In this document: positions 9,060 through 33,763 of the stretch, piece by piece
Numbering within the stretch: position 1 is the stretch's first letter
How the letters are laid out: every line of letters begins with the position of its first letter
DNA from: Chloroflexota bacterium
GTDB lineage: Bacteria; Chloroflexota; Anaerolineae; Anaerolineales; Villigracilaceae
NCBI GenBank assembly: GCA_016865985.1
Contig: VGNO01000007.1
Location: 1-34,309, forward strand
DNA length: 34,309 bases
Direction: 5' to 3'
Notes under the pieces: model-generated
The model's input: the letters and a program-made list of their open reading frames with translations, nothing else
What the model was told of the DNA's origin: nothing
Database searches by the model: none
Position numbers and translations under genes: made by a program

Positions 9060-9638
9060 ATGGCTCGCAGAGAAATCGCCTTTTTACCCAACCAGTATTA
9101 CCATATCTATAACCGCGGCGTTAACCGCGAGCCGATTTTTCGCGCAGACAGAAATTATTATTTCCTCTTGCAGCGCTTCAAAGAGAATTTGCCCGACAAC
9201 CAGGTTTCAGCGATTGCCTACTGTCTGATGCCAAATCATTATCATTTTCTGCTCCGACAGGACGGCGAAATCCCCATTAGCGCTTTGATGCAGGCCGTCT
9301 TCAACAGCTACACCAAAGCCTTCAACAAAGCCTATGCACGCAGCGGGACCTTGTTCGAAGGCCCATTTCGCGCCGTTGGAGTGGACACATACGAATACCT
9401 CCTGCATCTCTGCAGATATATTCACCGCAATCCCTTGGAGGCAGGGTTGGTCAATCACCCGGCGAATTGGGTGTTTTCGAATTATCTCGAATGGATTGGC
9501 AAGCGGCAGGGCAGTTTGGTGGAGCATGAATTCGTGCAAGAAAACTTTCCTGATCCGGCTGAATACGAAGGGTTTGTCCTCGATTACACGCCGCCCGAAA
9601 AAGTGGCAAAGGCGATGAAAAAGTTCGAATTCGATTAG
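9060..9638 (+). CDS. REP-associated tyrosine transposase (RAYT), Y1/HUH family
   Basis: The 192-residue protein is an IS200/IS605-like single-strand nuclease of the RAYT type. The HUH motif is H60-Y-H62 in CLMPNHYHFLL. The catalytic tyrosine is probably Y84 in FNSYTKAFNKAYARSGTLFEGPF. The C-terminal CRYIHRNPLEAGLV is the standard family end. These enzymes cut and rejoin REP hairpins rather than moving as classic insertion sequences. AGGAG stands 5-9 bases before the ATG. The gene lies between two perfect hairpins (9009-9037 and 9642-9672) with a common GCACTT stem core, and between two aldo/keto reductase remnants. Length is complete, so the enzyme may be active. Confidence 0.93.
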   Translation: MARREIAFLPNQYYHIYNRGVNREPIFRADRNYYFLLQRFKENLPDNQVSAIAYCLMPNHYHFLLRQDGEIPISALMQAVFNSYTKAFNKAYARSGTLFEGPFRAVGVDTYEYLLHLCRYIHRNPLEAGLVNHPANWVFSNYLEWIGKRQGSLVEHEFVQENFPDPAEYEGFVLDYTPPEKVAKAMKKFEFD

Positions 9639-13562: not shown

Positions 13563-13601
13563 GAGACGGCCACCGGATTGGTAACCGTCTCTTGTTTCTG
13601 T
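13563..13601 (+). terminator. Rho-independent terminator after the 41-residue peptide gene
   Basis: GAGACGG (13563-13569) pairs with CCGTCTC (13585-13591), with an inner ACC/GGT pairing, followed by TTGTTTCTGTT. The T-rich side is on the plus strand, so it ends the small gene; it lies against the convergent gene ending at 13601. Confidence 0.7.
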
Positions 13602-14926
13602 TATTTCATGCCCCGGCTGAACTTCTTCTTCAGTATATCCTCCAGCGTGGGCTGGCCGATCTCCTGCAACTCGTAGCGCACGCGCTGGTGGGGCTTCTCG
13701 ATCTTGATGACGCGCGTCAGGTCAATGGGTGTGCCGATGATGACCATGTCCACGTCGGCTTTGCGGATGGTGGCTTCCAGGTCCTTCATCTGCGCTTCAC
13801 CGTAGCCCATGGCGGGCAGGATGGGGCCGGTCTTGGGATATTTCTGGTAGGTGGCCTTGATGGACTTGACTGCGAACGGGCGCGGGTCAACGATCTCCTT
13901 CGCCCCGAAGCGCTTGGCAGCCACGTACCCGGCGCCGTAGGCCATCTCGCCGTGGGTCAGCGTCGGGCCGTCCTCGATGACCAGGACGCGCTTGCCCTGG
14001 ATCTCGGCGGGTTTGTCCACGAAGAGCGGGGAGGCGGCCTCGATGACGGTCGCTTTCGGGTTCAGGGTGCGCAGGTTCTCGCGCACGCGGATCACAGCCT
14101 GCGGGTCGGCGGTGTCCACCTTGTTGATGACGATCACGTCTGCATCGCGGGCGTTGGTCTCGCCGGGGTGGTAGGCGCTCTCGTGGCCGGGGCGGTGCGG
14201 GTCGGCCACCACGATTTTCAGGTCCGGGACGTAGAACGAGAAGTCGTTGTTGCCGCCGTCCCACAGGACGATGTCCACTTCCTTCTCGGCAGCGCGCAGG
14301 ATCTTCTCGTAGTCCACACCGGCATAGACAATGACGCCGTTGTCAAGGTGCGGTTCGTATTCCTCGCGCTCCTCGATGGTGCACTCGTGCTTGTCGAGGT
14401 CCTTGTAAGTGGCGAAGCGCTGGACTTCCTGCTTGACCAGGTCGCCGTAGGGCATGGGGTGGCGGATGGCGGCCACCTTGAAGCCCATGCCGCGCAGGAT
14501 GAGCGAGACGCGGCGGGTGGTCTGGCTCTTACCCGAACCGGTGCGCACGGCGCAGACCGAGACGACCGGCTTGCTGGATTTGACCTGGGTGCTCTTCTTG
14601 CCCATCAGGCGGAAGTCCGCGCCGGCAGCCAGCACCATCGAAGCCTTGTGCATCACATACTCATGTGGAACATCCGAGTAGGCAAAGACGACCTGGTCTA
14701 CCTTTAAATCATTGATGAGTTTCAACAGGTCGCTCTCGGCGTGGATCGGGATGCCTTTGGGATAATGTTTCCCGGTCAGCGCGGCGGGATAGGTGCGGCC
14801 TTCGATGTCGGGGATCTGGGTGGCGGTGAAGGCCACCACGTCGTAGTCGGGGTTGTCCCGGAAGGCCACGTTGAAGTTGTGGAAGTCGCGCCCGGCGGCG
14901 CCCATGATGAGGGTACGGATTGGCAT
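13601..14926 (-). CDS. Cyclic 2,3-diphosphoglycerate synthetase-like P-loop protein
   Basis: The 441-residue protein starts MPIRTLIMGAAGRDFHNFN, a Rossmann-like N-terminal domain, then has a P-loop AVRTGSGKS at residues 126-134. Further features are VLWDGGNNDFSFYVPDLKIV, DADVIVINKVDTAD and a C-terminal VDMVIIGTPIDLTRVI. This is the domain order of cyclic 2,3-diphosphoglycerate synthetase family proteins. In methanogens the enzyme makes the osmolyte/thermoprotectant cDPG; bacterial members are common but largely untested, so the product here is unproven. AGGAG precedes the ATG at 14926, and three 15-base repeats lie immediately upstream. A longer frame to 14989 would translate those repeats and is not preferred. 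It follows argS on the same strand, 110 bases away. Confidence 0.82.
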   Translation of the reverse strand: MPIRTLIMGAAGRDFHNFNVAFRDNPDYDVVAFTATQIPDIEGRTYPAALTGKHYPKGIPIHAESDLLKLINDLKVDQVVFAYSDVPHEYVMHKASMVLAAGADFRLMGKKSTQVKSSKPVVSVCAVRTGSGKSQTTRRVSLILRGMGFKVAAIRHPMPYGDLVKQEVQRFATYKDLDKHECTIEEREEYEPHLDNGVIVYAGVDYEKILRAAEKEVDIVLWDGGNNDFSFYVPDLKIVVADPHRPGHESAYHPGETNARDADVIVINKVDTADPQAVIRVRENLRTLNPKATVIEAASPLFVDKPAEIQGKRVLVIEDGPTLTHGEMAYGAGYVAAKRFGAKEIVDPRPFAVKSIKATYQKYPKTGPILPAMGYGEAQMKDLEATIRKADVDMVIIGTPIDLTRVIKIEKPHQRVRYELQEIGQPTLEDILKKKFSRGMK

Positions 14927-14942
14927 GTAGGTTCTCCTTTTG

Positions 14943-14987
14943 AAGTGTTCCAGTGTCAAGTGTTCCAGTGTCAAGTGTTCCAGTGTC
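14943..14987 (+). repeat. Three tandem 15-base repeats
   Basis: AAGTGTTCCAGTGTC occurs three times back to back (14943-14957, 14958-14972, 14973-14987) in the leader between argS and the cDPGS-like gene. The unit is a multiple of 3, and on the minus strand would read TLEHL repeats if translated. Such an array is liable to change copy number. Confidence 0.85.
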
Positions 14988-15036
14988 ACGACTCGGTGTC
15001 ACGTGATACTGGGCAACGTGACGCCGGGAAACGGGA

Positions 15037-22430: not shown

Positions 22431-23326
22431 AAGGTATCCGGTAATTTCAACGCACTCCCGGCCATTTGTTCGATCACGCCGATGACTGCCGAGTTGTCCA
22501 GGTCGCCCATGCCCATCTGGAGCATGGCGTTGAATAACTGGGCATGGACGGCGGCCGACGGGAGCGGGACGCCATACTCGCGGGCCGACTCCATCACGAT
22601 GTCCAGGTCCTTGGCCTGCATGGAGGCTTTGAAACCCGGCTGGCGGTTACCGGCAAAGAGACGCGGCGGTTTGACATCCAGCGTCCAGCACTGGGCCGCG
22701 CCGCCCTTGATGGCCTCCACTACTTTTACGGGGTCCACGCCCGCCTTCTGGGAAAAGAGCAGCAGTTCGCCCATGGCCGCCATCTGCGCCGCGACCATGA
22801 TCTGGTTGGCAGCCTTGGCCACCTGCCCGGCCCCCGCCTCGCCCACGTGCGTGACCGTCTTCCCAATGGCCTGGAGGACCGGCAGCGCCGTTTCCAGCGC
22901 CTCCGCCGGGCCTCCGACCATGATCGCCAGGGTGGCGTTGCGCGCCCCGATATCGCCGCCGGAGACCGGCGCGTCCAGGCAGGACACGCCTTTTTCGGAC
23001 AGGCGCAGGCTCAGGGTCCGCGCCGTGGCGGGTTTGATGGTCGAATTGTCCACCCACACCAATCCTTTATGCGCCCCGGCCAGGATGCCATCCGCGCCCA
23101 GCGCCACCTGTTCCACGTCCGGCGAATCGGGCAGGTTGGTGAAGATCACATCCACCTGGGCTGCCGTCTCCGCCGGGGAGGTTGCGGGGCGCGCCCCCTC
23201 GGCGACCAGTTCATCCACGGCGGGACGCGAACGGTTGTGGACGACCAGCGGGAAGCCGGCTTTGAGGATGTTGCGGGCGATGGACTTGCCCATCAGGCCC
23301 AGGCCGATGTAACCGATTTTGAGCAT
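22427..23326 (-). CDS. Beta-hydroxyacid dehydrogenase (3-hydroxyisobutyrate / tartronate-semialdehyde reductase type)
   Basis: The 299-residue enzyme starts with the NAD(P)-binding motif GYIGLGLMGKSIARN (GxGxMG, residues 8-13). Then come WVDNSTIKPATARTL, the substrate loop CLDAPVSGGDIGARN, and the catalytic-lysine helix GEAGAGQVAKAANQIM. The C-terminal domain includes GFKASMQAKDLDIVMESAREYGVPLP. The family oxidises or reduces small beta-hydroxy acids; the substrate is not fixed by sequence alone. AGGAGGCGCT stands ahead of the ATG, and a minus-strand promoter lies at 23349-23378. It is followed directly by the YitT gene with a 4-base overlap. Confidence 0.92.
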   Translation of the reverse strand: MLKIGYIGLGLMGKSIARNILKAGFPLVVHNRSRPAVDELVAEGARPATSPAETAAQVDVIFTNLPDSPDVEQVALGADGILAGAHKGLVWVDNSTIKPATARTLSLRLSEKGVSCLDAPVSGGDIGARNATLAIMVGGPAEALETALPVLQAIGKTVTHVGEAGAGQVAKAANQIMVAAQMAAMGELLLFSQKAGVDPVKVVEAIKGGAAQCWTLDVKPPRLFAGNRQPGFKASMQAKDLDIVMESAREYGVPLPSAAVHAQLFNAMLQMGMGDLDNSAVIGVIEQMAGSALKLPDTL

Positions 23327-23348
23327 AGCGCCTCCTATGTACCGTAGG

Positions 23349-23378
23349 ATTATACCCGCCCCAGGCGCTGCCGGTCAC
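23349..23378 (-). promoter_or_regulatory. Promoter of the dehydrogenase-yitT pair
   Basis: On the minus strand TATAAT (23354-23349) lies 18 bases after GTGACC (23378-23373). The start codon at 23326 follows with AGGAGG in between. Confidence 0.55.
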
Positions 23379-23538
23379 GAGCAGAAGATGCGGTTTGCCA
23401 CCTCCGGCAGGGCTTTTGGGTACACCAATTTCGACCACCTCCGCTTACATATCCTGGTTGAGTGTGCACCCAACCCCACTTATAACCAGAGAGCCGCAAA
23501 TATTGCGGCCTCGATTCGTTCACGCCGCATGGCAATTC

Positions 23539-23598
23539 GTATCGTCCCGCCGAACTTTGGTCGGGAAATACCGGGCACAGCCCGGCGGTACTCGATAC
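23539..23598 (+). repeat. Branched inverted-repeat structure upstream of RAYT 2
   Basis: GTATCG (23539-23544) pairs with CGATAC (23593-23598) as an outer stem. Inside are a short CCCG/CGGG stem and a clear hairpin CCGGGC-ACA-GCCCGG (23571-23585). The structure ends 23 bases before the RAYT 2 start and is a candidate substrate of that enzyme. The rest of the 23327-23621 gap shows the dehydrogenase promoter and nothing coding. Confidence 0.5.
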
Positions 23599-23621
23599 AT
23601 TTTCGGTTAAAATTCGTGGCG

Positions 23622-24284
23622 ATGACCGAACGCGACTTCTACCGCCGCCGTTTGCCGCACTGGCATCCTTTCAACGCCACATTCTTCGTGACCTTTCGCC
23701 TCGAGGGGTCGCTTCCAAAACCAGTCCTTAACCTGCTCCAGGAAGAGTATGAGCAGGCAAAACATCTTTTTGATCTCCTCCCTCCTGAACAAAGTCATCA
23801 GAAATACTACGATGCCTGCAGGGAAGCCTATGCGCGCTTCGACCGCGCCCTGGACAAGGCAAACGGTCCGCGCTGGCTGACTGAGCCGCAAATTGCCGGT
23901 ATCATCCGAAACGAGATTCATGCCCTTCATCCACACCAGTATTGCCTGCTGGCCTTTTGCATGATGCCCAATCATGTTCACCTGCTTGTGGATATGCAGG
24001 ATATCCCTGCGCCGCCGCCTCGAAAAAATGGCGTTTCATACACTCCTCTGGCCTATGCGCTCTGGCTTTTGAAAGGACGCTCCGGCCATGCCTGCCAGAA
24101 AATCCTGGGAAAGCCAGGCCGGTTTTGGAGCCGCGAAAGTTATGATCATGTGGTGCGCGATGAACATGAATTCGAGCGTATCCTGTCCTATATCGCGAAC
24201 AACCCGGTCAAAGCGGGGCTGGTAAAGCAGTGGGAAGACTGGCCAGATACGTTTGTAGAGCAAACCTATCGCGATATCGTCTAG
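23622..24284 (+). CDS. REP-associated tyrosine transposase (RAYT), second type
   Basis: The 220-residue protein belongs to another RAYT subgroup than the one at 9060. It opens with [20 protein letters not shown], a signature of this subgroup. The HUH motif is H118-V-H120 in [12 protein letters not shown], and [13 protein letters not shown] near residue 175 carries the likely catalytic tyrosine. It ends with [12 protein letters not shown] plus a short tail. ATG 23622 was chosen because the family N-terminus begins there; the longer frame from 23319 crosses the repeat structure. Structured repeats stand on both sides (23539-23598 and 24285-24350), and a decayed reverse transcriptase starts 74 bases after its stop. 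Confidence 0.92.
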
Positions 24285-24357: not shown

Positions 24358-25388
24358 ATGTATTCCCAACTCTGCTCCGGGGACAACCTCCTGCTCGGCT
24401 ACCGCAAGGCCGCTAAAGGCAAACGCGGCCATCCCAGCGCGGCCGCCTTCGAGTACCGGCTGGAATACAACCTACTGGCGCTCCAGCGCGAACTGCTGGA
24501 GAGGCGTTACACGCCGGGGGAATACCACAGTTTCTACATCCACGACCCGAAGAAGCGGATTATCTCGGCCGCGCCGTTCCGCGACCGCGTCGTCCATCAC
24601 GCCTTGTGCAGCCTCATCGAACCGGTCTTCGAGCGCTCCTTTATCTTCGATTCCTACGCCAACCGCGCCGGAAAAGGCACGCACCGCGCCATCGATCGCG
24701 CCCAGTAGTTTTCCCGCAGGTATAAATATGTTCTCCCATGCGACATACGCCAGTACTTCCCGTCCATCGACCATGCCATCCTGCGCGGTATCCTGGCGCG
24801 CAATATCCCTGACGAAGGTATCCTCAGGCTGGGGGATCAAATCCTCGCCCGCGGCAGAGGCGTGCTGGCGGAAGAATACGAAATGGTCTTTTTTCCCCGG
24901 CGACGATCTGTTCGCGGCCAGCCGCCCATGCGGCCTGCCCATCGGCAACCTGACCAGCCAGTCCTTGGCGAACTGTTACCTCAATTCGTTCGACCATTTC
25001 GTAAAACGTGAATTGCACTGTCCCGCCTATGTGCGCTCGTGGATGATTTCCTGCTGCTTGCAGATAATAAACTGACCCTGCGGGATTGGAAAAAGGCAAT
25101 TATCGAACGCTTGTCCGGCTTGCGCCTCACCTGCACGAAGAGTCGATGCAGGCGCTTTTGTCCCAATCCGGTCTACCTTTCCTTGGATTCGTCATTTTTC
25201 CTGAATACCGGCGCTTGAAACCCCGAACAGGATTTGCCTTTCGACGCCGCCTCGGGCGCATGTGGAGGGAACAATCCTGCGCAGGGATACCGCTATCGGC
25301 CATCACGACCGCCGTGCAGGGCTGGGTCAACCATGTCCGTTATGGAGACACTTGGGGTCTGAGGCGGTCGGCGCTGGCGGGGCAGTGA
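24358..25388 (+). pseudogene. Decayed reverse transcriptase of the diversity-generating-retroelement type
   Basis: Joined across frames this is a nearly full-length reverse transcriptase. The N-terminal part reads [19 protein letters not shown], then [21 protein letters not shown] and [22 protein letters not shown] (24706-24708) replaces a sense codon; the same frame goes on with [20 protein letters not shown] shift in the T6C4 run (24889-24898) leads to [10 protein letters not shown] (24932-24961), the IGxxxSQ form of motif 4 found in diversity-generating-retroelement enzymes rather than group II introns. A missing base near 25037 breaks Y(V)DDF, and another near 25130 precedes PFLGFVIFPEYRRLK and WVNHVRYGDTWGLRR. 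Sequencing error could explain some shifts, but not easily all four lesions. No template/variable repeat or accessory gene was found. Confidence 0.85.
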
Positions 25389-25395
25389 TGGCCTA

Positions 25396-25428
25396 AAGAA
25401 AAAAGTGCATCCGCTCGGGATGCACTTT
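25396..25428 (-). terminator. Terminator of the 33502-25451 operon
   Basis: AAAGTGCATCC (25402-25412) pairs with GGATGCACTTT (25418-25428), an 11-base stem. On the minus strand it is followed by TTTTTTCTTT, so it ends transcription from the gene stopping at 25451. Confidence 0.85.
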
Positions 25429-25450: not shown

Positions 25451-26020
25451 TCAACGCGCCGGGGCGGAACGCAACTTGCGCGCCAGCAGGATGACCAGCG
25501 CCAGCGCCAGGGCGATGATCAGCAAGCCCGGCAGGCCCACTTCGTCGGCGAATCCGCCCACCGGCAGGGCGACCAGGGTGGCCGATAATGTGGCGGTGGG
25601 GGTCAGGAGGGCGATGGCGACCTGGGTGTTGAGGGCTGCCATGGTGGCGGTCAGCGGGTCGGTCTCGGGGGTGGCGGTGTCGCCATCGAGGGCCACCACC
25701 GGCGTTTCGGTGGCCAGGCCTTCGATGGTCGGGCTGGCGAGAGGCTCGGTCGGCGTCCACAGGCTGGCTTCGACCGTCTGGGTCATGGCCTGCGAGACCT
25801 GGGTGTTCTGGGCGGCCACGGTCGCCGCCTCGGCGGCTTTCCTCCCGCCCTGGGAGGGCGCGATCACCAGGACATAGACCGCCAGGCAGACCAGGGTCAG
25901 GAAGACCAGGCCGGCAAAGATGCCGGCGACGATGATGAAGGTCCGGTTGCTGTTCTCAGGCCCGGCCTCGCCCGGCGCGGCAGGGGATTCCAGGTTGACG
26001 TTGTCGCCTTGTTCGAACAT
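25451..26020 (-). CDS. Membrane-anchored protein with an LPxxG-like C-terminal signal
   Basis: The 189-residue protein has a short acidic N-terminus, a helix (TFIIVAGIFAGLVFLTLVCL), an external threonine/proline/alanine-rich region (TATPETDPLTATMAALNTQ) and a C-terminal LPVGGFADEVGLPGLLIIA helix ending in KLRSAPAR. LPxxG, helix and basic tail resemble a sorting signal, although the usual T is G; GFADEVGLPGL-like ends recur, to my recollection, in Chloroflexota surface proteins. ATG 26020 has GGAGGAAG ahead and was preferred to 26128. It has its own extended -10 promoter (26114-26126) and the operon terminator after it, so it may be transcribed both alone and as the last gene of the upstream operon. 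Confidence 0.8.
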   Translation of the reverse strand: MFEQGDNVNLESPAAPGEAGPENSNRTFIIVAGIFAGLVFLTLVCLAVYVLVIAPSQGGRKAAEAATVAAQNTQVSQAMTQTVEASLWTPTEPLASPTIEGLATETPVVALDGDTATPETDPLTATMAALNTQVAIALLTPTATLSATLVALPVGGFADEVGLPGLLIIALALALVILLARKLRSAPAR

Positions 26021-26113
26021 GACTTCCTCCTTGCTTCTGCCCGGATGGGCAATGGTGCAATCGATCTCCTGTGCGAACCGTTCACCGGACCGTTCCAGCC
26101 ATCCGGATGGCGG

Positions 26114-26126
26114 AATTATATCATCC
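26114..26126 (-). promoter_or_regulatory. Extended -10 promoter element
   Basis: The minus-strand GGATGATATAATT is identical to the 13-mer upstream of argS. TGATATAAT is an extended -10. The start codon at 26020 lies about 94 bases downstream. Confidence 0.5.
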
Positions 26127-26168
26127 AAAAGCCCATCTTAAATGACACCGGCGCCGCAACCGTCCGGC

Positions 26169-27233
26169 CTACCCGGCGCTGTTGATCACTTCCAGGTTCG
26201 CCAGCGGGACCACCAACTGGCTGCCGTCCTCCAGTCGCACCTCCCCGGCCGCCACGCGCAGGCCGCTCGGGACGGTCGTCAGGCCGGGTTTGAGCGCCAC
26301 CAGGGTGGCGATCTCCCCCAGGCGCGGGGCGCGGCACAGGCGGACGCGCTGGCCGGGGGTGAAGTGTTCGCCCAGGTGGGGCGCCGGCGGCTCCTGCGAG
26401 ATCGGCAGCGGGATGACGACCTCCGGCCGCGTCCCGGTGGCGCGGTCGTATGGCTCGGCGTTGACGGTGCATTCGCGCCTGGCGTTGGAGGCCAGCAGTT
26501 TGTAGGCGGCGCTGTTCATCGGGCGGTTCCCGAAACCGTCCACCACCAGCACCGGGAAGCGCGCCTGCGCCGCCAGCCCGATCAATGCCGGGGACAGGCT
26601 GCCGAGCACCAGGCCACGCAGCGGCAGGTCGCTGGCATTGCGCAACGCCTCCGGGTCGGAGCAGGCGCCGGCCAGCAGCACCGAGCCGCGGAAACTGACA
26701 TCCAACCGGCTGGCGACCAGCGGCTCGCCGGGTTCGGTCATCATCGAGAGCATCAGTCCCAGGTCGACCCGGCCGTTGCCCCACACGCCCTGCACCAGCG
26801 CGCCGTGGGTCGTGACCTCCACCCCGCGCCCGGCGATGATGCGGGTGACGATGCCGGGCAGGCCGGCGCGCAGTTCGAGCGTCCCTTCGCCGACTTCCAG
26901 CAGCACCTTGCCGCCCCCGCAGGCCACCACGCGCCCCTCGCGCGGCACCTTGACCGGCAACGGGACGAATCCCCGCCCCTGGGCAATGACCCGCCCGGCC
27001 TCCAGGCGTTCGCCGACCTTGCAGGTGACCAGTTTCCCGGCCGCTTCGGGCGGAAGTCCCAGCGCCTGGCCTACATCCAGCAGGACGTGTTCGCGCCCCA
27101 GGCTGGCTTCCGCCACCACGTCCACCGGGCTGACTTTTTGTTCGAGGCGCGCCGTCACCCGCCCGGCGAGCGGCAGGAGCCGTTCACGGTGGATGGTGGT
27201 CAGGGGCAGGATGTGGGAAAGCGGGGCCAGCAT
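26169..27233 (-). CDS. MutL-associated protein of unknown function, 354 residues
   Basis: The protein contains beta-rich parts and no recognised catalytic motif. Residues about 75-130 (LEAGRVIAQGRGFVPLPV, then GRVVACGGGKVLLEVGEG) look like a barrel-sandwich hybrid fold. The middle has VDLGLMLSMMTEPGEPLVAS and LVLGSLSPALIGLAAQ, and FPVLVVDGFGNRPMNSAAY reads like a nucleotide or ligand pocket. The C-terminus (FTPGQRVRLCRAPRLGEIATLV) resembles a KOW/Tudor-type barrel. The start lies 6 bases after the stop codon of the MutL-like gene, so the two are co-translated and probably act together. The name is descriptive; function is not known. Confidence 0.75.
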   Translation of the reverse strand: MLAPLSHILPLTTIHRERLLPLAGRVTARLEQKVSPVDVVAEASLGREHVLLDVGQALGLPPEAAGKLVTCKVGERLEAGRVIAQGRGFVPLPVKVPREGRVVACGGGKVLLEVGEGTLELRAGLPGIVTRIIAGRGVEVTTHGALVQGVWGNGRVDLGLMLSMMTEPGEPLVASRLDVSFRGSVLLAGACSDPEALRNASDLPLRGLVLGSLSPALIGLAAQARFPVLVVDGFGNRPMNSAAYKLLASNARRECTVNAEPYDRATGTRPEVVIPLPISQEPPAPHLGEHFTPGQRVRLCRAPRLGEIATLVALKPGLTTVPSGLRVAAGEVRLEDGSQLVVPLANLEVINSAG

Positions 27234-27239
27234 CTCCGG

Positions 27240-28991
27240 TCAACCTCCCAGGCTGTAGAGCCATTTCTTGATCATTTCGCGCCGCCGGGCAGGGTCGGGT
27301 GCGAGGCGCAGCGGCCGGCCGCGGGCGTCGATCACCAGCCCGAGCGCCGTCCCGCTGACGGGGATCTGCCCGCCCCGTCCCGCCCCGAAACCGGCATCGG
27401 CATGGTGCAGCGGCTGGAGGCTGGCCTGGCCGGCTTGGCCGGGAGGCAACTGGATCAGTTCCAGCGCGCCCTGCCGCACCTCCACCTGGGTCTCTGCGCC
27501 GCCGCGTACCGACAACCGCAAGCGCAGCACTGGCGTGTTCGGGCGCACGCCGGAGACCACGCTGATCACGGTCGCCAGGCCGAGGAAGGCGCCCGATTCG
27601 AGCACCTGCACCGAAAGGATCGGGCTGCGCCCGGCAGCCGCGCCCAGCGCCGGCAGGAGGTTGTTCTGGTCGAGGATCATGGTGGTGACGCCGGTCGGTT
27701 GGATGCCGTCCAGCAGCATCAACAGGCTCTGCCCAAGGGTGGGGGCGGCGGCGAAGACGCTCCCACCGGCCAGCGCCGGTTCGAAGGCCGGCGTCAGGTC
27801 CGGCGCGGGGCGCGGGATGCCTGCCGGGAAATCGGCGGCGGCCGCCTGCATTGCCAGGGACAGGTTCTGGCGCGCCAGCGCCTGTTCGATGGCCAGGTCC
27901 TCCACCGTGGCCGGCAGGCTGGCGGGGTAGATGGCCTTCTGGTAGATGTAGTCGCGCACGGTCTCGGCCGGGATGTCGAGCGGCAGCCAGCGCAGGATGG
28001 ATTCAAGGCTGGTATGGCGCAGGATGCCCCCCAGCCCCTCCCCCAGCCCGAAGTGCGGGTAGATGCCCTGCACCAGCCGGCCCTGGAAGGCGGCCGAGAT
28101 GGTGGCGGCCGAGGCGCCCAGGTCCACGCCCAGGATGCCCTTCTGCCCGCCGTAGATCTGGCCCAGGAAGCGCACCATCCGGCCGTGGGCGTAACCGGTC
28201 GGCAGCAGGCTGCCATCCGACCAGGCCGCCAGGTCGTCCAACCCGCCGGTCTGGCTGCGCCGGATGTGGGCATAAGCCTGCACCAGGGCGCGTTGGGCGG
28301 GTTGGATATCCTCGGTCTCGAGGCGCGGCAGGATGTTGGGACTGATGTGGAGGGACGGCGTCCAGGGACCGAGGGTATTCCTGACCTTGACGGCATTGTC
28401 CTGGTTCCCGGCGTAGACGATGACCGGGCGTTTATCCGCCGGCAGCAGGTAGCAGGCCAGGCCGACCAGTTCCACCAGGCGGTCGATCGAGCGGGTCGCG
28501 CCGCCGTCGGTGCCCCCGGCGATCAGCAGCAGGTCCGGCTGGAGGCGCAGGATGGAGTCGATCTGTTCCTCCGGCTTGCGCCGGTCGTTCAGGCTGACCA
28601 GGTCCAGCACCCTGGCGTAGGTCGAGCGCGCCAGGCGCTGGATGCTCTCCAGCGAGTAGTCGTTCAGCAGGCCGACCACCACCGTCTTGAGCGCCGGGCC
28701 GGCCGACATGGTGGCGGTGAAATGGTCCACACCGGCGCCGTCCTGGGCGGGGATGATGAGGCGCTGGTCGCCGCCCAGCAGGATGCGCCCGGTGACGGTT
28801 TGCAGGTTGCCAATGGCCTGGTGGACGCCTTCCGCCACGTTCCTGTAAGGGGCGGCGGCCGTGCTGGGCGCCTGGCCGGAGGCGATGAAGCGATAACCGC
28901 CTTCCACCACGTCGAAGAGGGCGGCGCGGGTCGTGACCGTGCCCACGTCCACGGTCAGGAGGGAGTCGGCGGTGATCAGGGATGCAGGCAT
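27240..28991 (-). CDS. MutL-family ASKHA (glutamate mutase L-like) protein
   Basis: The 583-residue protein has the actin/Hsp70/sugar-kinase layout of the glutamate mutase MutL family. Phosphate 1 is LLTVDVGTVTTRAALFDVV near the N-terminus. PDLLLIAGGTDGGATRSIDRL is the central loop, and GILGVDLGASAATISAAF is a second phosphate loop. Family members are usually described as chaperones or activators of B12-dependent mutases. No mutase subunit (MutE/MutS) or B12 gene is in the window; the neighbours are membrane proteins, so another role such as a scaffold or ATP-driven assembly factor is suggested. It is packed with 3- to 6-base gaps to genes on both sides. Confidence 0.85.
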   Translation of the reverse strand: MPASLITADSLLTVDVGTVTTRAALFDVVEGGYRFIASGQAPSTAAAPYRNVAEGVHQAIGNLQTVTGRILLGGDQRLIIPAQDGAGVDHFTATMSAGPALKTVVVGLLNDYSLESIQRLARSTYARVLDLVSLNDRRKPEEQIDSILRLQPDLLLIAGGTDGGATRSIDRLVELVGLACYLLPADKRPVIVYAGNQDNAVKVRNTLGPWTPSLHISPNILPRLETEDIQPAQRALVQAYAHIRRSQTGGLDDLAAWSDGSLLPTGYAHGRMVRFLGQIYGGQKGILGVDLGASAATISAAFQGRLVQGIYPHFGLGEGLGGILRHTSLESILRWLPLDIPAETVRDYIYQKAIYPASLPATVEDLAIEQALARQNLSLAMQAAAADFPAGIPRPAPDLTPAFEPALAGGSVFAAAPTLGQSLLMLLDGIQPTGVTTMILDQNNLLPALGAAAGRSPILSVQVLESGAFLGLATVISVVSGVRPNTPVLRLRLSVRGGAETQVEVRQGALELIQLPPGQAGQASLQPLHHADAGFGAGRGGQIPVSGTALGLVIDARGRPLRLAPDPARRREMIKKWLYSLGG

Positions 28992-28994
28992 ACG

Positions 28995-29669
28995 CTAGAA
29001 GAGGCCGGCCAGGAAATTCCAGATGAAGGAGACGCGTTCGATGAGGGCGGTCATGGCGGAGGCATAGACCCCGGCGAAGAGGGCGCCGAAGGCAAACGCG
29101 ATGAAGACCTGCCCCACCAGGCCGAGCAGTTCCACCAGGCGGTTGCGCCGCGGCCCGGCGGCGGTGTTCCTGGCCCCGAAGTGGAAATAGGCCAGGGTGG
29201 TGATCGTCCCAACCAGGACGATGCTGCCTTCGAAGAGTTTTTCCGGGGCGCTCGCTGCGCCGGTCACATCCAGCAGGCGGGTGGAGGCTTCCACCTGGGG
29301 GAAGAGCGTCCCCAGCACTGCGCCGCCGACCGCCACCGCCGCCGCCACGCCCACCAGGTAGGCCATAGCCGGGTTGCCGAGGCGCGCCGAGCGGGGGGAG
29401 AGTTTCGCCAGCAGCAGGATGCCCAGCCCGAGCGGGATGATGGACAAGAGCCGCTCGCCGGTCCCGCCGGCGGCCAGGGGCTGGAACAGTTTCGGCCACA
29501 GGACCTGGTACCAGGCCACCGCCCCGGCATAACCGGCCGAGACGCCGACGAAGATATGGACCGCCAGGCGGAAGAGGGGGTTGTCGCCGACCAGGTAACT
29601 CAAGACCATGACCGTCAGGAGGAAACTGGCGGCGGCGGTCACCAGGTCAGGGGAAAGGGCGGTGGACAT
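28995..29669 (-). CDS. Multi-span membrane protein of the MutL operon
   Basis: The 224-residue protein has about six transmembrane helices: AAASFLLTVMVLSYLVG, LAVHIFVGVSAGYAGAVAWY, LLSIIPLGLGILLLAKLS, YLVGVAAAVAVGGAVLGTLF, IVLVGTITTLAYFHFGA and VFIAFAFGALFAGVYASAM. No charged catalytic residues stand out within the helices and no family was recognised. Its stop is 3 bases before the MutL-like start and its start is 2 bases after the preceding gene's stop, so it is part of one tightly packed operon. It may anchor or partner the MutL-like protein at the membrane. Confidence 0.8.
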   Translation of the reverse strand: MSTALSPDLVTAAASFLLTVMVLSYLVGDNPLFRLAVHIFVGVSAGYAGAVAWYQVLWPKLFQPLAAGGTGERLLSIIPLGLGILLLAKLSPRSARLGNPAMAYLVGVAAAVAVGGAVLGTLFPQVEASTRLLDVTGAASAPEKLFEGSIVLVGTITTLAYFHFGARNTAAGPRRNRLVELLGLVGQVFIAFAFGALFAGVYASAMTALIERVSFIWNFLAGLF

Positions 29670-29671
29670 GC

Positions 29672-31876
29672 TCAGGGTTTCTCCGTCACCCGGTATGGCT
29701 TGCGGCTGCCAGGTTCGCCGGCCAGGCTCCAGATGCCTCCGGCCAGGATGATCAGCACGGATATGAAGAGGCCGGCGCTGAAGGCGGTCCAGTACGCCGT
29801 CCCCAGGCCGGGACGCTGGATGGACTGCTCATAGGCTTTGCCGCCTGCCAACCCGGTCACCAGGCCTTGCACCTGGCCGGATTCGTAGTACGGGCGGAGC
29901 ATGGGTTCGGCCTGGGCGCTGATGACCATCAACACCGGCCTGCCTTGCAGGTGGGAGGAGGCCTGTTCGATCCAGGCGCGCCCGGTATCGGCGCTGTCGG
30001 TCACGATGATCAGCAGGGTGAAATCGCCCAACTCCCGGACGCCGGCCAGGGGCGGCAGCGACCAGGCATCCGCGCCGCCGGGGGTGACCGGCGCGGCGGC
30101 GGGCGGGTCGATGGCAAAATCGAGGATGCCGGCCGGCCCGCCGGCCAGGTAGCCCAGGTTGACGTATTCCTCCCCGCCGGTGTACTGGTGGAAGGACTGG
30201 GTCTCGAGCATGAAACGCTCGGCCAGGGCCGGGCCGCTGGGGATGGTGGAAACCAGCGCCAGGCGGGCGCCTGTGAAGAGCAGGTTGTCGATCAACGGGG
30301 CGGCGGCGGCTTCGAGTTCGCCGGCCAGCGCTGGTTCGTAATCGAAGGCGATCAGTACCGGCGCATTGACCGGGACGAGCGCCGGGTCCTGGACGACATT
30401 GCGGGCGGCGACCATTTCGGGCGGGTAACCGGACAGGTCGGGTGCGACCTGCATCCCGCTTGCGACCGGCAGCAACACCGCCAGCAGCAGCAGGAGGGCG
30501 ACGACCCAGCGCAGGATGCGCGCCGGTCCCAGCAGGGACGGTTCCGGCAGTTCGCTGCGCTGGCCTTCCCCGGCCACCAGCCGTTCGAGTTGGGCGGCAT
30601 TGCGGGCCTGGTCTTCGCTGGCCTGGAGTTTGATCGAGTATGCCGGGGGTTTGCGGAAGGCGCCCATCCCCGGGGCGGCAGGGAGCACGCCTCGCAGCCC
30701 GGCCAGCGGTCCCTGCTCCTCGGCCGGCAGTTCCTCGCTCTCGCCCAGCGGGGCGGCAGCCACAACGCTTTCCACCGGGCGCATGGCCTGCACCCAGGTG
30801 GGGAGTTGCGCCGGTTCGAGCGAACCATCGACCTGCCCATCACCGGTCTCTGCTGCCGGCCCGGGGGCGGGCGCTTGTTCGGGTTTGATGGTCGAAAGCC
30901 AGTCCGGCGATTCGAGCGGCAGGGAGGAATCGGTCCGGGCGGGGGACTCCTCGCCGCCGGCGATCAACGCCGGGGTGACGCCGGCCGGTCCACCCGGCGA
31001 GGCTGGGGAGCCTTCAGCGGCTGCGACCCCGGCCGCGGCTGCCAGCCAATCCGGGATCTCCTCTCCCGGGCGGGCGGTGGGGGTGCCAGCCAACCCGCCT
31101 CCGGGCATCAGCGCCTCGCCGGCGGTCTCCAGCGGCAGGTAGTCCGCTTCCGGCTGGAGGCGGGAAAGCCAGTCCGGTTCCTCCCCGGGCAGCCTGGCTT
31201 CGGGGACGGGCTGATCCGTCCCGGCCCCGGTTGGCGAGGTGTTCTCGCGCGGCAGTGGCCGGGCATTTTCATCCGGGTGGATGGCCGGACGGGCGACGGC
31301 GTCCTTCAGGACGGCCTCCCCGTCGCCCAGGCGCGAGAGCCAGCCGGGCATTTCTTCCCGGGGCAGGTCGTCCACTGCGGGAGCGGCCGGCGTATCAGGC
31401 GGGGAGGCGGCCGGCGGGACTTCGCCTTCCTCCTGCATCCGGCCGCGCAGGTTGGCAAGCCAATCGGGGACTTGCTCCTCTTCGACCCTGGTCTTATCGT
31501 CCTCCAGGCCTGCCAGCCAGTCGGGGAATTCGACTCTTTCTGCCTCGCCGGCCGGCGCGGGGGCGGGAGGCTCATCGGGGGCAGGTTCGGGCGGCTGGTC
31601 GGGATGGCCGCGCAGGTTCTTCAACCACGATGGCAGCGCCTGTTCCAGTTCGGATGTTTTTTTCTTGACCGGGGGATCGCCGGGGCGGATCAGGTCATCG
31701 TCGGAGGGTTTCGGGCGCACGCCCTCAAACTCGGCGGTGGCTTTCTTGACCGGTTTTTCACCGGGATGGATGGCTGCGCCGCCCGGCGCGGGCTGGAAGG
31801 ATGTGCCGCAGAACTGGCAGGCTGCCACGCCGTCAGGGTTGGTTTTGCCGCAGGTGGGGCAGGCGATTTCAGCCAT
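29672..31876 (-). CDS. Zinc-ribbon membrane protein with eight PxWL repeats
   Basis: The 734-residue protein begins with a zinc ribbon, C6xxC9...C20xxC23 (IACPTCG and CQFCG). A long disordered proline/acid-rich part (residues 30-450) follows, with eight motifs of the type [DE]xPxWLxxL at tryptophans 84, 120, 139, 179, 236, 277, 326 and 361 (LPSWLKNL, FPDWLAGL, VPDWLANL, MPGWLSRL and so on). A helix (ILRWVVALLLLLAVLLPVA) crosses the membrane near 453-473. Then comes an outer domain of about 220 residues with APVLIAFDYEPALAGELEA and FTLLIIVTDSADTGRAWIEQ, and a final helix near 704-722. ATG 31876 overlaps the previous stop by one base. The repeats look like docking motifs for a cytoplasmic partner. 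Confidence 0.85.
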   Translation of the reverse strand: MAEIACPTCGKTNPDGVAACQFCGTSFQPAPGGAAIHPGEKPVKKATAEFEGVRPKPSDDDLIRPGDPPVKKKTSELEQALPSWLKNLRGHPDQPPEPAPDEPPAPAPAGEAERVEFPDWLAGLEDDKTRVEEEQVPDWLANLRGRMQEEGEVPPAASPPDTPAAPAVDDLPREEMPGWLSRLGDGEAVLKDAVARPAIHPDENARPLPRENTSPTGAGTDQPVPEARLPGEEPDWLSRLQPEADYLPLETAGEALMPGGGLAGTPTARPGEEIPDWLAAAAGVAAAEGSPASPGGPAGVTPALIAGGEESPARTDSSLPLESPDWLSTIKPEQAPAPGPAAETGDGQVDGSLEPAQLPTWVQAMRPVESVVAAAPLGESEELPAEEQGPLAGLRGVLPAAPGMGAFRKPPAYSIKLQASEDQARNAAQLERLVAGEGQRSELPEPSLLGPARILRWVVALLLLLAVLLPVASGMQVAPDLSGYPPEMVAARNVVQDPALVPVNAPVLIAFDYEPALAGELEAAAAPLIDNLLFTGARLALVSTIPSGPALAERFMLETQSFHQYTGGEEYVNLGYLAGGPAGILDFAIDPPAAAPVTPGGADAWSLPPLAGVRELGDFTLLIIVTDSADTGRAWIEQASSHLQGRPVLMVISAQAEPMLRPYYESGQVQGLVTGLAGGKAYEQSIQRPGLGTAYWTAFSAGLFISVLIILAGGIWSLAGEPGSRKPYRVTEKP

Positions 31877-32496
31877 CACCTGCTCCCATAAGGCCGGTCG
31901 GCGCCGAACAGGATGCGCAGGCCGGTCGCCAGCGATCCGAGCGCCACACCGATCAGGATGCCGCGTGCCCCGGCCGCCGCCAGCACCTGGGTGAAGAATG
32001 GCCGCAGCAGGTCGCCCAGGATGGGGATCTCGCCGAATGGCAGCGGGGCGGTGCCGAGCAGGATGATCACAGCCGTGACCAGGAAGATGACCGACAACAG
32101 GTTCCTGCGCCGCCGCAGCAGGCGCACACTGGCGTAGACCAGGCTGACGGTCAGGAGCGCCATCAGGCTGGCCTCGACCGGGAACTGGACGGCGTTGAAG
32201 ACGGCTGCCATCACCGGGTGTTCCGGGCGCAGCGCCAGGCCGGCAAGCAGGGTCGCCAGCAGGCACAATACCAGGACGACGCTGTAGAAGCCGCCCTTCT
32301 GTCTGTCCCGCACCCTGGCGCTGTGGACTTTGACAAGGTTGGCGAGGCCGACGAACAGGGCGACGGCCGCCAGGATGACCGCCCAATCGAGTAGCAACCG
32401 GCGCAGGTTGACCAGCAACGGGGTTTCGATGAAATAACCCGCCAGGACGACCAGGCCGACCGCGATGGCAATGGCGGTGGAGATGATCCCTTTCAC
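31876..32496 (-). CDS. Multi-span membrane protein, 206 residues
   Basis: It starts at GTG with MKGIISTAIAIAVGLVVLAGYF and has about five or six helices (LLLDWAVILAAVALFVGLANL, VVLVLCLLATLLAGLALRP, VEASLMALLTVSLVYASVRLL, LLSVIFLVTAVIILLGTAPLP and a final glycine-rich helix). A basic loop VHSARVRDRQKGG lies between helices. The GTG overlaps the upstream stop (GTGA) and its own TGA shares a base with the next ATG, so translation is coupled on both sides. No family was recognised. Its constant company with the zinc-ribbon and MutL-like genes in this operon implies a shared membrane complex. Confidence 0.8.
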   Translation of the reverse strand: MKGIISTAIAIAVGLVVLAGYFIETPLLVNLRRLLLDWAVILAAVALFVGLANLVKVHSARVRDRQKGGFYSVVLVLCLLATLLAGLALRPEHPVMAAVFNAVQFPVEASLMALLTVSLVYASVRLLRRRRNLLSVIFLVTAVIILLGTAPLPFGEIPILGDLLRPFFTQVLAAAGARGILIGVALGSLATGLRILFGADRPYGSR

Positions 32497-33239
32497 AGCA
32501 GCCCCACCATTTTCAACAGCGCGCCGGCCAGGATGGCAAGGATCGCCAGCCAGCGCAGGATGTCCTGTACGGCCAGGCTGGCGGCATGGAACGGCCCGGC
32601 ATTGACATAAGCCCCGGCGGCGTAGAGTTCTTCACCGATCAGGGGGTCCTGGGCGCCGGCATAGAGCACGGCCTGGGCGGGCAGGTTGTCGGTGGCGGAT
32701 AAGGTGAAGGACCCCTTGCGTTCGGCGGTATCGGCCAGCAGGCCGGCTTCGACCCCGAAGTTCCCGATCAGCACATTGGCCGAGACATGTTCGTCGCGCA
32801 TGATGGGGATGGTCCCGGCGGCGTAGGAGAAGGGCGTCAGGCCGGCCAGGCGCCCGGCGGTGGCGTCGTAGAAGCCGCCGGCGGTTGCATCCTGGTAGGA
32901 GACCTGGAGCATGTCCTGCGAGAGGATGGCGACCGCCCCGTCGCCGCTGGAGGCGACCGGGGGCTTGTCCCCGGCGGAGGTCAGGTCTGCCAGGCGGCGC
33001 AGGACGGTCAGGCCGGCCAGGGCTGAGGCGCTCTGCGGGGTGGTCAGGCCGCCGCTGCCGAGCGAAACGTGCAGGCGGGAGCCGTCTTCCACCGCCCGGC
33101 CGATGGCGTGTCCCAGGCGGGAGAAGGCGGCGATCCGGCGGAAGACCGGCGGTTCCTTGCGGCGCAGGGCGGCCAGGAACAGCATCAGCCCGGCGCTCAA
33201 GCCCACCAGCCCGAGGCCGGCAAGGGTGGTCCAGTTCAT
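32493..33239 (-). CDS. Membrane-anchored protein, possibly DUF6754-like
   Basis: The 248-residue protein has an N-terminal helix (LAGLGLVGLSAGLMLFLAAL), a domain of about 180 residues and a C-terminal helix (ILRWLAILAILAGALLKMVGLL). The domain includes GSRLHVSLGSGGLTTPQSASALAGL in part, AILSQDMLQVSYQDATAGG, MRDEHVSANVLIGNFGVEAGLLAD and AVLYAGAQDPLIGEELYAAGAY. These phrases resemble a domain of unknown function I recall as DUF6754; that name is from memory and uncertain. The ATG/TGA overlaps on both sides couple it to its neighbours. A structural or sensory role at the membrane is inference. Confidence 0.75.
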   Translation of the reverse strand: MNWTTLAGLGLVGLSAGLMLFLAALRRKEPPVFRRIAAFSRLGHAIGRAVEDGSRLHVSLGSGGLTTPQSASALAGLTVLRRLADLTSAGDKPPVASSGDGAVAILSQDMLQVSYQDATAGGFYDATAGRLAGLTPFSYAAGTIPIMRDEHVSANVLIGNFGVEAGLLADTAERKGSFTLSATDNLPAQAVLYAGAQDPLIGEELYAAGAYVNAGPFHAASLAVQDILRWLAILAILAGALLKMVGLL

Positions 33240-33502
33240 GCGGCCGACTCCCGCAAGTATTCGATGAAGGCTTGGCCTTCATCATGGTCTTCGAGCAGGT
33301 TTGCCAGGGCGTCGATCTTATCCCCATTCAAAAGCGGCTGTAGGAGCGGGCTGCCCAGGAAGAGCGCCTGCGCCCCGAGCACATTCAGCGGTCCACCGGC
33401 TTCGAGCAGCCAGGCAGCCAGGTTTTCCAGCCCGTAGCGCCGCAGGAACTTTGCCCATGCAGGCCAGGGGATGCGTGTAGGGGAGGGCATTTCGGTTGGC
33501 AT
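33236..33502 (-). CDS. Small protein, first gene of the MutL operon
   Basis: The 88-residue product, MPTEMPSPTRIPWPAWAKFL and on, is mostly helical, with RYGLENLAAWLLEAGGPLNVLG and a C-terminal DHDEGQAFIEYLRESAA. It has no membrane segment. Its TGA overlaps the next ATG by 4 bases. The start is not fixed: ATG 33502 has no Shine-Dalgarno sequence, nor has the internal ATG at 33490. A minus-strand TATACT lies about 20 bases upstream, with TAGACC 18 bases before it. No family was recognised. Position as the first gene suggests it may be a regulator or soluble partner of the complex. Confidence 0.65.
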   Translation of the reverse strand: MPTEMPSPTRIPWPAWAKFLRRYGLENLAAWLLEAGGPLNVLGAQALFLGSPLLQPLLNGDKIDALANLLEDHDEGQAFIEYLRESAA

Positions 33503-33763
33503 AGTCTGTCAGGCGCCTGCCAACAGTATAGCATAAATTGACGGGCGCGGTCTACACGCCACGCAGGATGGCGGGACCATATCCGTCGCCCGGCAGTGAG
33601 TTTATTCCCGCCGAGGGTAGGAAAGGAGGCGCCTTCCAGGTTTGGTAGATACTGCTTCTTGAACAAATACCTTAACTGGAACTGACAAGAACCAGGCAGT
33701 TAGTGTAGTTTTAGGTTCGTTTATTTTCGTTGTATCCTGTAAGCCCAATTTTTGGATGATCCC
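33503..33763. other. Intergenic region with the operon promoter
   Basis: The right-hand 200 bases show nothing coding that I can support. Near 33520-33550 the minus strand has TATACT with an upstream TAGACC at 18-base spacing, a candidate promoter for the operon that runs to 25451. The rest is ordinary sequence with slightly higher A+T near the 33764 gene end. Confidence 0.4.

Follow-up and report, generated by a model that had tools for sequence, protein, structure and literature searches.

What does a MutL-family protein do in an operon of membrane-protein genes that holds no mutase, when the family is known for accessory proteins of B12-dependent mutases? The question is raised by an eight-gene operon in the window, by which we mean the whole stretch of 34,309 nucleotides analysed, contig 7 (C7, VGNO01000007.1) of a 3.2-Mb Chloroflexota genome in 421 contigs (GCA_016865985.1). 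Judged by its sequence, the MutL of this operon is a relative of the B12-mutase accessory MutL, yet distinct from it, and its neighbours recur together across bacteria and archaea. On balance, we favour the reading that these genes encode a single membrane-associated ATP-dependent machine, in which MutL and a partner protein would form the cytoplasmic motor or switch.

The operon consists of eight open reading frames (ORFs), g1 to g8, on the minus strand at 33502-25451, none of them with an internal stop in our reading of the window. Seven of these genes, g1-g7 (33502 to 26169), are tightly packed: g1 and g2 overlap by four bases, as do g2 and g3, g3 and g4 overlap by one, and two, three and six bases separate g4 from g5, g5 from g6 and g6 from g7, respectively. 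The measured range of -4 to +6 bases thus bears out the tight spacing described in the first-pass annotation. As read from the sequence, g8 starts at an ATG at 26020, 148 bases past g7. The same annotation had given this last gene a promoter of its own; a consensus scan found no site before g8, and the only promoter-like site lies upstream of g1 (33525-33554, minus strand; TAGACC-18-TATACT, 9/12, one found against 0.5 expected from shuffles), as a consensus match only. Just after g8 there is a terminator-like hairpin of 11 pairs (25402-25428, minus strand; four such sites were found in the region against 3.9 expected), and an Rfam search of the window gave no match. The operon is genuine, and the layout first proposed for it is correct apart from the extra promoter.

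The genes were compared with Pfam, and transmembrane (TM) helices were predicted. The first, g1 (33236-33502), encodes a small soluble protein of 88 residues with no Pfam family above cut-off. It is followed by g2 (32493-33239, 248 residues), a member of the DUF6754 family (PF20539, E 5.6e-31, 108 bits against a curated cut-off of 27), by g3 (31876-32496, 206 residues), with six predicted TM helices, by g4 (29672-31876, 734 residues), and by g5 (28995-29669, 224 residues), a polytopic protein with at least four predicted TM helices. In g4, a zinc ribbon that scores below the Pfam cut-off and a long linker with P-x-W motifs precede a TM helix, a Rossmann-like domain predicted to be extracytoplasmic and another TM helix. 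The helix-domain-helix portion, which we call g4C (29675-30562), is kept across phyla and was modelled by AlphaFold2 with a predicted local distance difference test (pLDDT) score of 91.7; outside Chloroflexota it mostly forms a linker-free protein of some 270-300 residues. No Pfam family exceeded its cut-off for g3, g4C or g5. The MutL is g6 (27240-28991, 583 residues), of the type associated with this cassette and of ASKHA fold (PF13941, E 7.3e-60, 203.4 bits against a cut-off of 27); to call it a MutL-like ATPase is a statement about fold. Downstream lie g7 (26169-27233), a protein of 354 residues with barrel-sandwich-like, central and KOW-like C-terminal domains, and g8 (25451-26020, 189 residues), an additional gene that only some Chloroflexota have, with an N-terminal TM helix, a Thr/Pro-rich region and a C-terminal TM helix. 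The five membrane proteins (g2, g3, g4, g5 and g8) and the MutL-family protein of the first-pass annotation are therefore in agreement with the predictions. Relatives of the window g8 in three loci (L050, L032 and L042) end in a TG-containing tail, which is LPQTG in L050, a TM helix and basic residues, an arrangement reminiscent of a sorting signal.

The relation of g6 to mutase-linked MutLs was analysed in an unrooted tree, from which three rows, two truncated MutLs and one duplicate, were left out. A single branch with a support of 100/100 split 58 cassette-type MutLs from nine mutase-linked ones. A position inside mutase-linked clades, which had been named beforehand as the result that would refute a non-mutase role, is therefore not where this MutL falls, and it carries an extra C-terminal domain as well. 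None of the nine mutase-linked proteins reaches beyond position 463 of the 578-position profile, while the cassette types continue, in g6 with an extension (27240-27596) that has a DARGRPL signature, is missing from mutase-linked MutLs and gave no family in a Pfam search. Against the GlmL equivalog model NF040745, g6 reached 95.6 bits, far below the cut-off of 475. TTHB207 was discarded as a relative of g6, its match (E 0.35) being noise. Six MutL places in five genomes of the phylum scored 450-567 bits against PF13941; Pfam identified a B12-binding protein and MutE as neighbours at one of them (L073) and an ornithine-aminomutase-type protein at another (L072), the neighbours at the remaining ones being read by eye, in part. 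One locus (L076) is labelled mutase-linked because of its place in the clade, the portion read containing no mutase gene. On three plasmid records (L197-L199), glmL is flanked by annotated methylaspartate mutase subunits S and E. Two Chloroflexota genomes (G176 and G290) carry both kinds of MutL.

The gene neighbourhood survey proposed in the first-pass annotation showed partners other than mutases across phyla. DUF6754 was found in 67 of 301 genomes of Chloroflexota, and we analysed 41 loci with iterated profiles, namely 40 of the 67 DUF6754 places plus the window, which is itself one of the 67. Gene order and strand were constant in all 41. Every locus has g2, g3 and g4. Both g5 and g6 occur in 38, the contigs of the remaining three breaking off within g4; g1 is likewise present in 38, g7 in 24 and g8 in 17; in the 14 loci where g7 does not adjoin g6, the genome carries it elsewhere. 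The cassette-type MutL profile matched 179 of the 301 genomes, its weaker matches including mutase-linked MutLs (e.g., in G089 and G178), and it matched 66 of the 67 genomes with DUF6754 compared to 113 of the 234 others (Fisher p 1.2e-16, kinship ignored).

A scan of species genomes with the g2 alignment returned 388 relatives, of which the best 80, 33 from Chloroflexota and 47 from other lineages according to their labels, were analysed. As labelled, the metagenome-assembled genomes of the 47 include Bacillota, Planctomycetota, Elusimicrobia, WOR-3, Eisenbacteria, Oligoflexia, Deltaproteobacteria, Latescibacterota, Hydrothermota and Armatimonadota (Chthonomonas) among bacteria, and Bathyarchaeota, Methanomethylicota, Culexarchaeia and Thermococci among archaea. 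Cassettes were testable when complete or followed by enough downstream sequence. Outside Chloroflexota, archaea included, 44 of 46 such cassettes keep g2-g3-g4C-g5 in fixed order, and the two exceptions, both in L141, resemble overlapping-ORF artefacts. The order also holds in 15 of 17 testable Chloroflexota cassettes of the scan, the others being L099, where a very long g4 pushes g5, which is present, past the 9.5-kb limit, and L143, which gave no g4C match. Seven loci have at least two cassettes. Of the 38 cassette genomes outside Chloroflexota, 36 carry MutL, and these 36 also carry g7; in 10 of the 47 loci, g6 and g7 stand within the stretch that holds the cassette. Co-occurrence and neighbours therefore point to two modules, a membrane one (g2-g3-g4C-g5) and a soluble one (g1-g6-g7), which Chloroflexota hold together in one operon. 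The first-pass annotation, whose reading of a machine is supported, had missed both the cross-domain membrane cassette and the pairing of MutL with g7 and g1 elsewhere. Neighbours outside Chloroflexota were inconsistent between phyla and were discarded as a guide to function. In three archaeal loci (L172, L174 and L179), a DUF47/PhoU-like protein, a PIN-ATPase-KH protein and a small protein precede MutL (Pfam was run on L174 only), and a sigma-factor-like protein, recognised by eye, follows MutL in L175 and L181.

Of the soluble partners, g7 adjoins 14 and g1 adjoins 10 of 20 MutL genes from cassette genomes outside Chloroflexota. In 3 of 14 paralogue loci, MutL and g7 form one protein in a single reading frame (991 residues in L202, 835 in L203 and 702 in L204), the MutL part of these fusions being divergent. 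The barrel-sandwich match of g7 is weak (RnfC_N, E 0.023, 15.1 bits against a cut-off of 25.6; NqrA, E 0.031), and 4 of 17 relatives match Biotin_lipoyl (best E 7.6e-7); the C-terminus is KOW-like (SPT5, E 2.4e-4). A lysozyme entry (5i8l) matched over 28 residues and was rejected as short-match noise. Near g1, four loci of genomes outside Chloroflexota encode a protein of 158-218 residues, alike by eye (L187:10190-10672, L189:6437-7093, L191:10187-10684 and L163:12918-13394), of which the L187 copy had no Pfam match; it may be another component.

The g4 linker offers a candidate contact between the two modules in Chloroflexota. The motif [LIVMFEDS]-P-x-W-[LMVI] is present in eight copies in the window (shuffle mean 0.14) and in up to 49 elsewhere, and in 34 of 36 g4 proteins the count was reached by at most 2 of 200 shuffles. 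A zinc-ribbon protein is encoded directly upstream of MutL in eight Chloroflexota loci that showed no recognised membrane module; six of these eight proteins have 7-15 copies, exceeding shuffles, and the exceptions, L083 and L084, have the zinc ribbon with one and no copy, respectively. Among 445 proteins of more than 300 residues in these loci, 41 contain at least three copies, all but one of them g4-type or zinc-ribbon proteins by their coordinates. The natural reading would be that these repeats are a docking motif for MutL or g7.

As for topology, the AlphaFold model of g2 (mean pLDDT 93.0, 60 sequences) shows a Rossmann-like domain between TM segments 3-27 and 216-244. According to the charges beside the helices (positive-inside), this domain would be cytoplasmic and that of g4C would be outside. 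Two g2 proteins have long N-terminal extensions, with HEAT repeats in one (L133:7583-10738) and fibronectin-III-like by eye in the other (L141:2746-4668), which are consistent with an outside N-terminus. The linkage of these genes is shown by the sequences; a physical complex, ATP hydrolysis, the topology given above and a role in the envelope or in transport are what we infer. The membrane module would combine two polytopic proteins with a Rossmann-like domain on the inner face (g2) and another one on the outer face (g4C), and the soluble module would consist of the ASKHA-fold MutL with its partner g7, and g1. MutL-g7 would bind to the membrane module from the cytoplasm, with the zinc ribbon and PxW repeats of g4 as its docking site in Chloroflexota; ATP would change the shape of MutL, and g2 and the polytopic proteins would relay this change to the outer domain, so as to move or assemble an envelope component. 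A membrane-associated machine around a non-mutase MutL, as the first-pass annotation had proposed, is supported by the MutL tree and by the C-terminal domain; the use of ATP, the formation of a complex and the function are the putative parts of it. One machine is favoured by the constant gene order, by the co-occurrence of the cassette with MutL and g7, by the MutL-g7 fusions, by the PxW repeats, and by the MutL-g7 pairs beside FtsX and ABC genes described below.

Several observations weigh against a single machine of this kind. The two modules lie apart in many genomes, and two genomes (G309 and G338) carry the cassette with neither MutL nor g7. Conversely, some Chloroflexota families have MutL-g7 and the zinc-ribbon protein with none of g2, g3, g4C and g5 in the stretch, so MutL-g7 can probably work free of the cassette. 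In the window MutL, the phosphate motifs (DVGTVTTRA and DLGASAAT) are recognisable but looser than the canonical ones in rows from Bacillota, Elusimicrobiota and Planctomycetota (e.g., DCGSTTTKA and DIGGATTD). A Foldseek search with the g2 and g4C models gave no PDB match at an E value of 0.001 or better, so the folds name no function for either. Finally, the five genomes in which MutL-g7 pairs adjoin FtsX-type genes, which are described below, may be related to each other.

The main rival, which we regard as unlikely and still ahead of the others, sees MutL-g7, together with g1, as a factor for folding, assembly or reactivation in general and the cassette as merely one client. Paralogous MutL-g7 pairs adjoin genes for an FtsX-like permease and an ABC ATPase in five loci, L205-L209 (genomes G302, G312, G310, G305 and G303), all reached via Bacillota loci. 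The FtsX and ABC genes were confirmed by Pfam in L205, L206, L207 and L209, and by a profile of our own in L208. FtsX-like genes lie within 7 kb and on the same strand for 9 of 126 g6 matches (five loci; the loci overlap and include some duplicates), and they occur in 5 of the 14 paralogue loci. The pair therefore appears to work beside more than one kind of membrane complex, as an assembly factor could; its persistence with a zinc-ribbon protein in cassette-free lineages and the annotation of mutase-linked relatives as accessory proteins also argue for this explanation. The near-universal co-occurrence of cassette and MutL-g7, however, suggests a dedicated link. The clusters L205 and L209 also contain HTH-TPR regulators, and the five clusters could constitute a regulated export system of their own.

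Next in probability, and rather improbable in our view, is a sensory or gating complex in which an RCK-type ligand-binding domain of g2 would control an ion or solute path through g3-g5, with MutL as regulator. The best rows for g2 in VIA-align are indeed RCK domains (KtrA, Z 10.8, root-mean-square deviation (rmsd) 3.1, 126 residues aligned), g4C also matches such a domain (MthK, Z 8.5, rmsd 3.1, 126 aligned), and the glycine-rich loop is conserved among g2 relatives. However, phosphoglycerate kinase is level with the RCK rows for g2 (Z 10.6, rmsd 3.1, 147 aligned), several SIS-domain rows are within one Z unit of them, and DUF6754 is the only Pfam match of g2. In fold searches, many enzymes match either Rossmann-like domain equally well, and no specific fold was assigned to g2 or g4C, since the matches are generic Rossmann-like ones and none is clear of background; families missing from these lists are not thereby ruled out. 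Glutamate racemase, whose match to g4C is partial and weak (E 0.0043 over 67 residues), was set aside, and hhalign supported neither g3 and g5 (probability 1.7) nor g2 and g4C (6.7) as paralogues. As far as the models go, fold searches would not distinguish an assembly factor or a sensor from the machine.

It is very unlikely that g6 is still the accessory protein of a B12 mutase encoded elsewhere, its operon partners being incidental. The first-pass statement that there is no mutase holds for the operon and for contig C7, which has no match to PF06368, PF01642 or PF02310; it does not extend to the genome, which encodes two methylmalonyl-CoA mutases (C130 and C10) and four B12-binding domains above cut-off, all on contigs other than the window. 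The presence of methylmalonyl-CoA mutase (PF01642) in 22 of 22 Chloroflexota carriers tested also agrees with an accessory role. Outside Chloroflexota, on the other hand, PF01642 gave no match in 18 of 38 carriers, all 18 with MutL, and a confident B12-binding domain was found in 57 of 60 carriers, the other three (G316, G323 and G329) having MutL as well. The separate clade, the extra domain and the conserved non-mutase neighbours point in the same direction. That these are unrelated housekeeping genes kept by conserved operon order with no shared function is hardly credible in view of the MutL-g7 fusions and of a linkage that extends over bacterial phyla and archaea.

We tentatively extend the favoured reading of one membrane-associated machine to an ancient, cross-domain and ATP-dependent envelope machine. 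Its membrane core would be four proteins of uncharacterised families, with a Rossmann-like domain on either face, and it would be driven by MutL-g7, a pair that would also drive complexes of the FtsX type; the B12-mutase MutLs would then be a side branch of an older family of membrane-linked ATPases. This broader proposal is somewhat less probable than not. Should the reading be true, a further membrane machine would be present in Chloroflexota, Bacillota, Planctomycetota, Elusimicrobiota and archaeal lineages, and a large clade of the MutL family, many members of which have no adjoining glutamate mutase, would find a place and a role that can be tested. The reading would also bear on what MutL does for B12 enzymes.

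Other features of the window lie outside the operon. Past its terminator, the plus strand at 24358-25388 contains reverse-transcriptase-like pieces in different frames (IGNLTSQ and YVRSW, by eye); three such pieces gave no match in Pfam, and they are probably a decayed element. Two genes for Y1/IS200-like transposases are on the plus strand at 9060-9638 (Y1_Tnp, E 6.5e-11) and 23319-24284 (E 2.9e-4, below cut-off), the latter directly beside the reverse-transcriptase-like pieces. A protein of 462 residues encoded at 13601-14989 (minus strand) has a weak match of CobW/HypB type for nucleotide binding (E 2.2e-4) and, by eye, resembles a cyclic 2,3-diphosphoglycerate synthetase.

In the open-access literature we found no paper naming DUF6754, PF13941, PF20539, TIGR01319 or IPR006230, a description elsewhere being possible, and no match for MutL with glutamate mutase and Chloroflexi or for GlmL with methylaspartate mutase; broader searches of the same literature gave no account of these genes, COG2185 being the only identifier to turn up. 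To our knowledge, no described system has this set of parts. Three of the four membrane families are absent from Pfam, and the MutL component comes from a known family. The g2 family, DUF6754 (PF20539), is an uncharacterised Pfam family, found here in a cassette with three non-Pfam families and MutL-g7. RnfC and NqrA resemble g7 in the weak barrel-sandwich match; g7 stays below the RnfC cut-offs (10.3 bits against 245.95 for the rnfC model) and has a KOW-like C-terminus, and no Rnf or Nqr subunit was matched among g2-g5 in Pfam. FtsX-type ABC transporters (MacB/LolCDE-like) have paralogous MutL-g7 pairs in their clusters in the five Bacillota loci, and g2-g5 have no Pfam match to FtsX or ABC families. 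In type IV pili and type II secretion, PilM/GspL-type proteins are cytoplasmic ASKHA proteins of actin fold attached to an inner-membrane assembly. The likeness to them is one of working principle; g6 belongs to PF13941, and g2-g5 have no Pfam match among pilus or secretion families. The counterpart by family is the GlmL/MutL accessory protein of methylaspartate mutase and ornithine aminomutase (NF040745 and NF040744), with which g6 shares the ASKHA-fold family over about 460 residues; unlike it, g6 has no adjoining mutase subunits and stands in a separate clade, with an extra C-terminal domain and with g7 and the membrane cassette as its partners.

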